This document shows positions 61,435-63,732 of a stretch of 64,000 bases of DNA, one piece after another. Source of the DNA: Allobrachymonas denitrificans DSM 15123 (GTDB lineage Bacteria > Pseudomonadota > Gammaproteobacteria > Burkholderiales > Burkholderiaceae_C); contig NZ_FOCW01000001.1 of the NCBI RefSeq assembly GCF_900110225.1, positions 62,001 through 126,000 on the forward strand. Direction: 5' to 3'. Within the stretch, counting starts at the first letter, position 1. Every line of letters starts with the position of its first letter. The translations under genes and the position numbers were made by a program. Under the pieces are notes generated by a model that searched no databases, had not been told where the DNA came from, and was given only the letters and a program-made list of their open reading frames with translations.

Positions 61435-63732
61435 ATGAAGATTCATGAGTACCAAGGCAAGGAAATCTTGCGCCAGTTTGGAGTGCCCGTACCGCGCGGC
61501 ATTCCCGCGTTTACCGTTCAGGAAGCCGTTGAAGCCGCCCAGAAGCTGGGTGGCCCGGTGTGGGTGGTGAAGGCTCAGATCCATGCGGGCGGCCGTGGCA
61601 AGGGCGGCGGCGTGAAGGTTGCCAAGTCCATCGACGACGTCAAGACCCTGGCTGGCGACATCCTGGGCATGCAGCTCAAGACGCACCAGACCGGTCCCGA
61701 AGGCCAGAAGGTCCGCCGCCTGTACATCGAGGAAGGCGCCGACATCCAGAAGGAATACTACCTGTCCTGCGTGACCGACCGCGGCACCCAGAAGGTGGCC
61801 TTCATCGCTTCCAGCGAAGGCGGCATGGACATCGAGGAAGTGGCCCACTCCACCCCCGAGAAGATCATCAAGGTGTTCGTCGACCCCGCAGCCGGCCTGA
61901 CCGCCGAGCAGGGCGAAGAGCTGGCCAAGGGTGTCGGCATGCCCGAAGACTCCAAGGCGCAGTTCATCGACGTCTGCCAGAAGCTGTACAAGTGCTACAT
62001 GGACACGGACGCTTCCCTGGTCGAGATCAACCCGCTGAACCGTGACGGCAAGGGCAACATCATCGCCCTGGACGCCAAGTTCAACTTCGACAGCAACGCC
62101 CTGTTCCGTCATCCCGAGATCGTGGCCTACCGCGACCTGGACGAAGAGGATCCGGCTGAAGTCGAGGCTTCCAAGTTCGACCTGGCCTACATCAGCCTGG
62201 ACGGCAACATCGGCTGCCTGGTGAACGGCGCCGGTCTGGCGATGTCCACCATGGACACGATCAAGCTGTACGGCGGCGAGCCGGCCAACTTCCTCGATGT
62301 GGGCGGCGGTGCCACCACCGAGAAGGTGACCGAAGCCTTCAAGATCATGCTGAAGAACAAGAATGTGAAGGCCATCCTGGTCAACATCTTCGGCGGCATC
62401 ATGAAGTGCGACACCATTGCCGAAGGCGTGGTGGCTGCTTCCAAGGCGGTCGGCCTGTCCGTGCCGCTGGTGGTCCGCATGAAGGGCACCAACGAAGAAG
62501 CCGGCAAGAAGATTCTCGCGGAATCGGGTCTCCCGATCATCACTGCCAACACCATGGCCGAAGCGGCCGAAAAGGTGGTGGCCGCTGTGGGAAAGCCTGA
62601 TCACACCGGTGGTGAAATGCCTGCAGCCGCAGGCGTAATCGCCGGTGTGGCCGGGCGTGACCCGGTGAAGACCGACTCCCATGACGCAACGACGGCTGCC
62701 GTCGCCCCGCTCGCCGCTGCTGCCCCCGTGGCTGCCGCTGCACCGGTGGCGGCGCAAGCCGTTCCTGTACCGGCTGCTGCCGCGCACGACGCGGCGCATG
62801 GCCATCACGACGACAACGACGAGCCCGCTCCCGCCGGAACCTGGTGGGGCAAGGCGCTGTGGCTGGCGGCCGTGGCCCTGGTGGCACTGGCGCTGCTGCG
62901 CATGTGCGGCCAGGCTCCGGTCGAGGTGCCAGTGACGGCGCCCGTGGCTTCCGAGCCTGTTGCTGCTGCTTCCGAACCGGCATCTGCTGCCGCTCCCGTG
63001 GCTGCCGGCCTGCACTTCGGTGACTGGCTGGCCCGCGTGACCGATGGCAAGCTGACGCTCGAGGGCAAGGTGGCCGACCAGTCCGCCAAGGATCTGCTGC
63101 TGGCTGCCGCCACCGAGAAGTTCGGTGCCGGCAACGTCATCGACCAGCTGACCGTGGACGCCAGCCTGCCGAAAGCCAACCTGGGCCTGCGCCTGGGCGA
63201 GCTGTTCGACTGGCTCAAGGCCAACGCCTCTGCCACTGTGCAGGCGGCGGGCAGCAAGCTGGCCCTGGGCGGCGCGCTGGGCGAGGCGCTGATCGGCGAC
63301 ATCGCCGGCAAGCTGCGCGGCTGGTTCGAGGGTGCCGAGGTGGACGTGAGTGCCGTCAAGCCCGAGGTCATGAAGGCTGCCGATGCCCTGAAAGCGGGCG
63401 TCAAGACCTTCCGGATCAATGTCGAGTTCGACACGGCCAAAGCCACCCTGCGTTCCGAAAGCAAGGCCGAGCTCGACGAGCTGGCTGCCGCGCTGAAGGA
63501 AGCCAGGCTGGGCGGCGAAGTGGCTGGCCATACCGACAACACGGGCGACGCTGCAGCCAACCTGACACTCTCGCAAGAGCGTGCAGACGCAGTGAAGGCG
63601 TATCTGGTACAGCAGGGCGTGGATGCCGCGACCCTGACCGCGAAGGGCTACGGCAGCGAAAAGCCGGTAGCCGACAACTCGACTCCTGAAGGCCAGCAGC
63701 GTAACCGCCGCGTGGAATTCAACGCTCAATAA
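61435..63732 (+). CDS. sucC: Succinyl-CoA synthetase beta subunit fused in frame to a membrane span, BON-like segments and an OmpA domain
   Basis: Residues 1-387 are a complete SucC: ATP-grasp domain ([13 protein letters not shown]), [21 protein letters not shown] and the C-terminal ligase domain with [10 protein letters not shown]. The frame then continues for 378 residues. These comprise an Ala/Pro linker with a His/Asp cluster (H451-D462), one hydrophobic span (about 470-488), a second Ala-rich linker, BON-like segments (about 526-640) and an OmpA-type domain (659-765). In the last, D701 and R716 keep the 15-residue spacing of the peptidoglycan-contacting Asp/Arg pair of E. coli OmpA. SucC is normally a soluble protein of about 388 residues. 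The junction carries a frameshift signal that could release normal SucC; a one-base sequencing error is the rival explanation. sucD starts 21 nt downstream. Confidence 0.85.
62589..62649 (+). promoter_or_regulatory. Candidate programmed -1 frameshift signal at the sucC/OmpA junction
   Basis: The heptamer G-GGA-AAG (62589-62595) is in the correct phase for -1 slippage; the same heptamer is used by the phage lambda G/GT frameshift. A slip to GGG-AAA is followed by GCC and TGA (62598-62600), giving SucC ending Val-Gly-Lys-Ala at 388 residues. After a 6-nt spacer a stem begins: 62602-62609 pairs perfectly with 62642-62649, extended by four more pairs (two wobble). A nested 6-bp hairpin is formed by GCCTGC 62619-62624 and GCAGGC 62629-62634. 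A Shine-Dalgarno-like AAGGTGGT (62572-62579) lies about 10 nt upstream, as in dnaX, though it also encodes conserved residues. Confidence 0.6.

Follow-up and report, generated by a model that had tools for sequence, protein, structure and literature searches.

A SucC-OmpA fusion gene in Brachymonas with a candidate -1 frameshift signal at its junction

In the 64,000-nucleotide stretch of DNA analyzed here (the window), the gene for the beta subunit of succinyl-CoA synthetase, sucC, runs on in frame into an OmpA-type domain, and the join carries the parts of a possible -1 frameshift signal. This raises the question of whether the gene makes one product or two. The initial annotation had proposed a programmed switch between free SucC and the fusion. 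The reading we prefer, and hold tentatively, is that the fusion is real and mainly yields a membrane-anchored SucC, with a lineage-specific -1 leak at the junction rather than an established regulatory switch. Taken separately, the fusion is very probably real, the full-length fusion is probably the main product, and physical slippage at the junction is likely, judging from the elements found there. The anchored TCA enzyme is a firmer novelty than the switch. Even without recoding, an inner-membrane-anchored succinyl-CoA synthetase that carries a wall-binding domain in the periplasm comes as a surprise, and it could easily be tested; the genus has cultured members.

The fusion gene and its relatives

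The fusion of 765 residues was read directly as a single open reading frame, and its homologues in other genomes bear it out (Table 1). Pfam matches in the frame are ATP-grasp_2 (1.1e-78), Ligase_CoA (1.9e-32), and OmpA (3.9e-24). The SucC part matches the NCBIfam SucC equivalog NF001913 over its full length with 591.6 bits (cut-off 370), and sucD follows downstream. It thus resembles other SucC proteins (NF001913, TIGR01016) in having a full-length domain over the curated cut-offs and a place upstream of sucD, and differs from them in that its C terminus is extended, in this genome (G000), by about 377 residues that include a transmembrane helix and an OmpA domain. Among the matches listed for G000, down to E 7.8e-15, there is no second SucC, and the rest are OmpA-type. 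The assembly has 2,712,870 bp in 21 contigs and is rated 99.99% complete and 0.07% contaminated.

Table 1. Features of the fusion gene and its junction, in window coordinates
Feature	Coordinates	Strand	Basis or remark
Fusion ORF, 765 aa: SucC, linker, one transmembrane helix, BON-like segment, OmpA C-terminal domain	61435..63732	+	ORF reading, Pfam, NCBIfam
SucC domain, codons 1-386	61435..62592	+	NF001913 match
SD-like AAGGTGGT, also coding conserved SucC E-K-V-V	62572..62579	+	9 nt upstream of heptamer
Slippery heptamer G_GGA_AAG, in phase	62589..62595	+	sole in-phase X_XXY_YYZ of the fusion ORF
-1-frame TGA	62598..62600	+	putative counterpart of the sucC stop of sister species (AAG GCC TGA)
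Predicted stem-loop, 12 bp + 8 bp, -33.7 kcal/mol, single-copy	62602..62649	+	folding; 6 nt past heptamer
In-frame ATG, codon 395, after GGTGGTGAA, inside stem-loop	62617..62619	+	possible reinitiation start (inference)
Predicted transmembrane helix, aa 474-492 (19 letters)	62854..62910	+	hydropathy maximum 2.14
BON-like segment, aa 534-575	63034..63159	+	Pfam, sub-cut-off
OmpA-like domain, aa 665-758	63427..63708	+	PF00691
sucD start, 21 nt past fusion stop, runs off window; complete (297 aa) in L065	63754..64000	+	

Between SucC and the helix lies an Ala/Pro-rich linker. The BON assignment (PF04972) scores 20.7 bits in the window and 26.7 and 23.3 bits in the homologous fusions of G005 and G001, all three below the cut-off of 27, and the OmpA domain of the window's fusion reaches 85.3 bits against a PF00691 cut-off of 27.2. 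In the alignment of these three species' fusions, D701 and R716 are present in the OmpA part of every one; we take them to be the Asp and Arg of the OmpA peptidoglycan-binding site, and binding is a prediction. With a topology based on hydropathy alone, the SucC part would stay cytoplasmic, the single helix would cross the inner membrane, and the periplasmic BON-OmpA part would bind peptidoglycan, which would make the main product a beta subunit of succinyl-CoA synthetase anchored at the membrane.

Outside the genus, no protein of the searched genomes matches the fused anchor better than a YidB-like protein with a transmembrane helix and an OmpA domain (L150, 1495-2958 on the minus strand, genome G589), which scores E 1.2e-48 with the anchor profile, 6e-8 with YidB, and 4.7e-21 with OmpA. 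It shares with the fusion a cytoplasmic-looking N-terminal domain, a similar helix with a W-W-K/W-G-K start, the anchor-profile region, and OmpA, but it has a YidB-like domain where the fusion has SucC, and the flanks covered contain neither sucC nor sucD. This likeness suits an N-inside topology. Stand-alone TM-BON-OmpA relatives were found in 29 of 399 genomes of the family besides G000 and G005 (E <= 1e-30; 18 of the 29 loci inspected) and in 5 of 369 genomes of the class besides G000 (E <= 1e-35; all 5 inspected). None of these 18 family and 5 class loci has sucC or sucD beside it within flanks of up to about 1.5 kb per side. In 10 of the 18 family loci (L039-L056) the frames are 263-291 aa long with signal-peptide-like starts, as judged by eye, and the remaining 8 are longer through an upstream open frame.

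We searched 60 genomes for SucC and read the 3' end of sucC in the 30 with loci. In 26 of them the gene stops at 386-393 codons, and it runs on in four, all of them Brachymonas, a genus represented here by nine genomes. Besides G000, SucC-TM-BON-OmpA genes open in frame and followed by sucD occur in G001 (717 aa) and G005 (726 aa), and G004 has a SucC-TM gene of 543 aa, in which SucC is followed by a cysteine-rich linker and a transmembrane helix with no OmpA match. That linker (L011, 1033-2661, minus strand) has CC, CK, and CKxxPC-like repeats ahead of the helix and, from its sequence, looks metal-binding or disulfide-prone. Completeness is 62% for G001, 86% for G004, and 83% for G005, so a second sucC is possible there. 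The sucC of G007 is interrupted by a contig end, and for G008 there is no SucC match among the matches listed. The remaining three, G002, G003, and G006, are the closest relatives of G000 and have a plain sucC with no OmpA module at all.

Elements at the junction

Codons 385-387 are GTG GGA AAG, so GGGAAAG lies in phase as X_XXY_YYZ, and direct codon reading agrees with the heptamer originally reported. In the -1 frame, GCC (62595-62597) and then TGA follow, which gives a product of 388 residues ending V-G-K-A. The early stop and the SucC-like length that had been claimed for the slipped product were both confirmed; 388 is the length of SucC in the closest relatives. The lambda g-t frameshift site also uses GGGAAAG, and the phage g-t shift leads to the longer product and is widely conserved, unlike the SucC junction. 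G_GGA_AAG is given for phage g-t tail-assembly frameshifting, for example in HCTV-5, and as highly shift-prone in E. coli, in the portion of a review that we covered, which also puts about half of known bacteria at a single tRNA-Lys (PMC5009743). In the portion of PMC4066793 available to us, G_GG.A_AA.G with stimulators is one of the three most efficient heptamers, with rates that come from E. coli and not from Brachymonas. We inspected the anticodons of all 48 tRNA matches in G000 and found two tRNA-Lys genes, both UUU; a sole tRNA-Lys UUU is what slippage on AAG requires.

The predicted stem-loop has an outer stem of 12 bp (62602-62613 with 62638-62649), as proposed, and an inner hairpin of 8 bp (62617-62624 with 62629-62636) instead of the proposed 6. 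Its minimum free energy of -33.7 kcal/mol over 48 nt was equaled in 0 of 200 dinucleotide shuffles. In a wider folding context 62596-62599 and 62601 are also able to pair, which would shorten the nominal 6-nt spacer. We considered a dispersed repeat as the source of the hairpin and rejected it, the hairpin being single-copy in the genome and the next best of 19 matches having E 0.33.

The Shine-Dalgarno consensus is AGGAGG. The AGGTGG of the SD-like stretch is one base off and codes for conserved K-V-V; a 5' stimulator of the dnaX type would be expected 6-17 nt upstream of the heptamer. A sequence of this kind had been placed about 10 nt upstream of the heptamer and is indeed present, at 9 nt, but we no longer count it as strong evidence, since the coding of conserved E-K-V-V accounts for the sequence. 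It reads AGGTCG in the three plain-sucC relatives, and is for both reasons weak evidence. Downstream, the ATG preceded by GGTGGTGAA lies 16 nt past the -1-frame TGA and could be where translation restarts to give a free TM-BON-OmpA protein.

The arrangement resembles E. coli dnaX (gamma/tau), where the frame-0 product is long and the -1 product short with a near-immediate stop (PMC5009743, portion covered), and shares with it an NNNAAAG-class heptamer, a 3' stem-loop, a single tRNA-Lys, and a possible 5' SD. It differs in the heptamer, which is A_AAA_AAG in dnaX, and in being unconserved among relatives and known from sequence alone. Among dnaX-type properties the junction has an in-phase heptamer of the efficient class, a predicted stem-loop within 5-9 nt, and a sole tRNA-Lys UUU; the sections of PMC4066793 seen place G_GGA_AAG in that class, call for motif conservation in selecting candidate genes, and note that many predicted hairpins are possibly fortuitous. 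Conservation in orthologues was not found: the signal is absent near the junction in G001, G004, and G005, and the sucC of G002, G003, and G006 is plain. The initial annotation had suggested comparing the junction DNA of relatives, and of the four Brachymonas with extended SucC only G000, one strain, has an in-phase heptamer near the junction (0 of the 3 others, whose heptamers are at codons 77, 308, 340, or 568). There is thus no sign that the others make anything besides the extended form.

Slippage is likely since the main promoting elements known from E. coli are present, a convincing SD excepted. What stood of the claimed switch is the fusion with its homologues, the shift-prone heptamer, the predicted stem-loop at 6 nt, the -1 stop, and the single tRNA-Lys species; what did not is conservation, and comparison lends the switch no support because the signal is missing from the other extended sucC genes and the module from the closest relatives. 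If slippage is real, recoding in a core TCA gene would decide where an enzyme is located, and the frameshift signal could be compared with close relatives in which sucC ends normally or is extended in frame. In a thin check of open-licence titles and abstract openings, neither a fusion of SucC with OmpA nor recoding of any TCA gene turned up. The portion covered of the review PMC5009743 does not contain 'succinyl' or 'TCA cycle', nor does the main text of PMC3711429, as far as it was covered, contain 'succinyl', 'sucC', or 'OmpA'. A pattern scan of viral_contigs gave no match.

Chance expectation and competing readings

To ask how often such a cassette arises, we used a sample of 464 kb of G000, consisting of the window and 20 stretches of 20 kb, with 300 predicted genes chosen by codon usage relative to five window genes, the fusion gene among them. 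In the 300 genes, 48 in-phase heptamers fit X_XXY_YYZ with A or T at Y, and the one in the fusion has the strongest hairpin at 5-9 nt of all 48 (-33.7; next -21.7). On the sense strand, 56 hairpin sites in the sample are at or below -30 and 7 at or below -33.6. From the 56 sites, one would expect about 0.04 (0.039) coincidences with A/T heptamers of any kind in the sample, and about 0.23 genome-wide. When the hairpin codons were recoded synonymously, 81 of 5000 recodings folded as strongly (mean -25.8). This measure replaced a dinucleotide-shuffle z-score (-6.75 for the 48-nt stem), which we abandoned as a measure of surprise; for the hairpin alone synonymous recoding is much milder. Recodings that keep both an A/T heptamer and a hairpin at 5-9 nt reach -33.6 or lower in 268 of 400,000 cases and -30 or lower in 2891 of 400,000. 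The cassette is unusual, though the site was a post hoc choice and there is another explanation for the -1 stop.

Because its strength exceeds what the amino acids require (268 of 400,000), the cassette may be selected instead of a leak. A selected dnaX-like frameshift would keep free SucC (388 aa) and anchored SucC-OmpA (765 aa) in a fixed proportion in this lineage, and slipped ribosomes might start again at ATG 62617 to give free TM-BON-OmpA. The dnaX-like spacing of heptamer, stem-loop, and -1 stop argues for this, as do the top rank of the pair among the 48 sampled, its rarity under recoding, and the relative-like length of the slipped product. Yet no heptamer lies near the junction in any of the three other extended SucC genes, the -1 stop is accounted for as a homologue of the stop in the sister species, and conserved residues account for the SD-like element, and we consider a selected switch doubtful. 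The fullest form of the idea appears unlikely: a TCA gene would use programmed -1 frameshifting to choose between free SucC and SucC linked across the inner membrane to the wall, with hairpin-controlled reinitiation yielding free TM-BON-OmpA, the new recoding signal having been built on the old sucC stop after import of the module.

A chance juxtaposition, in which the fusion is translated straight through with negligible slippage and an Ala/Gly linker, evolving freely, happened to acquire both the heptamer and the GC-rich hairpin, strikes us as improbable. The linkers of the three aligned fusions vary in length and can hardly be aligned, that of G004 is different again, about 0.23 coincidences of an A/T heptamer with a hairpin at or below -30 would be expected genome-wide, and coding for a Gly/Ala-rich peptide folds strongly regardless, as the mean over synonymous recodings indicates. 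Negligible slippage would nevertheless be surprising, given that G_GGA_AAG with stimulators is efficient in E. coli (PMC4066793, in the portion available) and that only tRNA-Lys UUU was found.

Least probable is a one-base assembly error or strain difference, with the junction reading AAGGCCTGAT instead of the fusion's AAGCCTGAT, sucC ending ...VGKA-TGA, and a separate, translationally coupled TM-BON-OmpA gene starting at ATG 62617 with its start masked by the stem-loop: the AAG GCC TGA of the three closest relatives, the usual sucC length in 26 of 30 genomes, the spacing of the GGTGGTGAA-ATG past the TGA, and the fact that strong hairpins are hard to sequence through would all fit, but in three other Brachymonas species sucC is extended in frame without a stop, the assembly is of high rated quality, and no homopolymer longer than 3 occurs at the site.

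Origin of the anchor module

We return to the preferred reading, a real fusion with a leak. In a tree of sucC plus sucD, G003 is the nearest neighbor of G000 (support 100) and G002 and G006 join next (99-100); sucC is plain in each of these three. These relatives end ...NKA-TGA and have one base more than the window (AAGGCCTGA in the relatives, AAGCCTGA in the window); G003 reads GTC AAC AAG GCC TGA where G000 reads GTG GGA AAG CCT GAT. The -1 stop thus has the look of the former sucC stop, shifted by a single base. An extra base in the G3A3 run of relatives, with sucC simply ending, had been named as a finding that would tell against recoding, and G003, G002, and G006 do have the extra base but no G3A3 run. 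Since they also lack the OmpA module, they do not show the window to be wrong.

Of the 42 mismatches between the sucC genes of G000 and G003, which are 96.4% identical, 13 are in nt 1065-1155 and 29 in nt 1-1064; this clustering at the 3' end is a hint that the module came in by recombination. On the other side the first 60 nt of sucD have 7 mismatches, and so does another 60-nt block of sucD, so the rise there is weak evidence of recombination. The mismatch clustering, in one genome pair, suggests that the module probably entered the G000 lineage by recombination into sucC-sucD. The junction would then retain the old sucC stop one frame off, and the heptamer and stem-loop beside it would let a minority of ribosomes slip by -1 and end as a normal 388-residue SucC. 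The alternative is loss of the module in the sister species; we infer that a single import is simpler than repeated loss with near-identical scars.

Over the argC-sucC stretch, the G000 and G003 loci (L065 and L061) are 94.5% identical, and over the 5 kb starting with sucD the mean is 81%, with sucD itself at about 95%. We also noted an antisense open frame of 802 aa with a GTG start (61417-63825, minus strand) that spans the whole fusion gene and is longer than it; it is probably a GC-rich mirror frame, of a kind able to mislead gene callers that favor the longest ORF.
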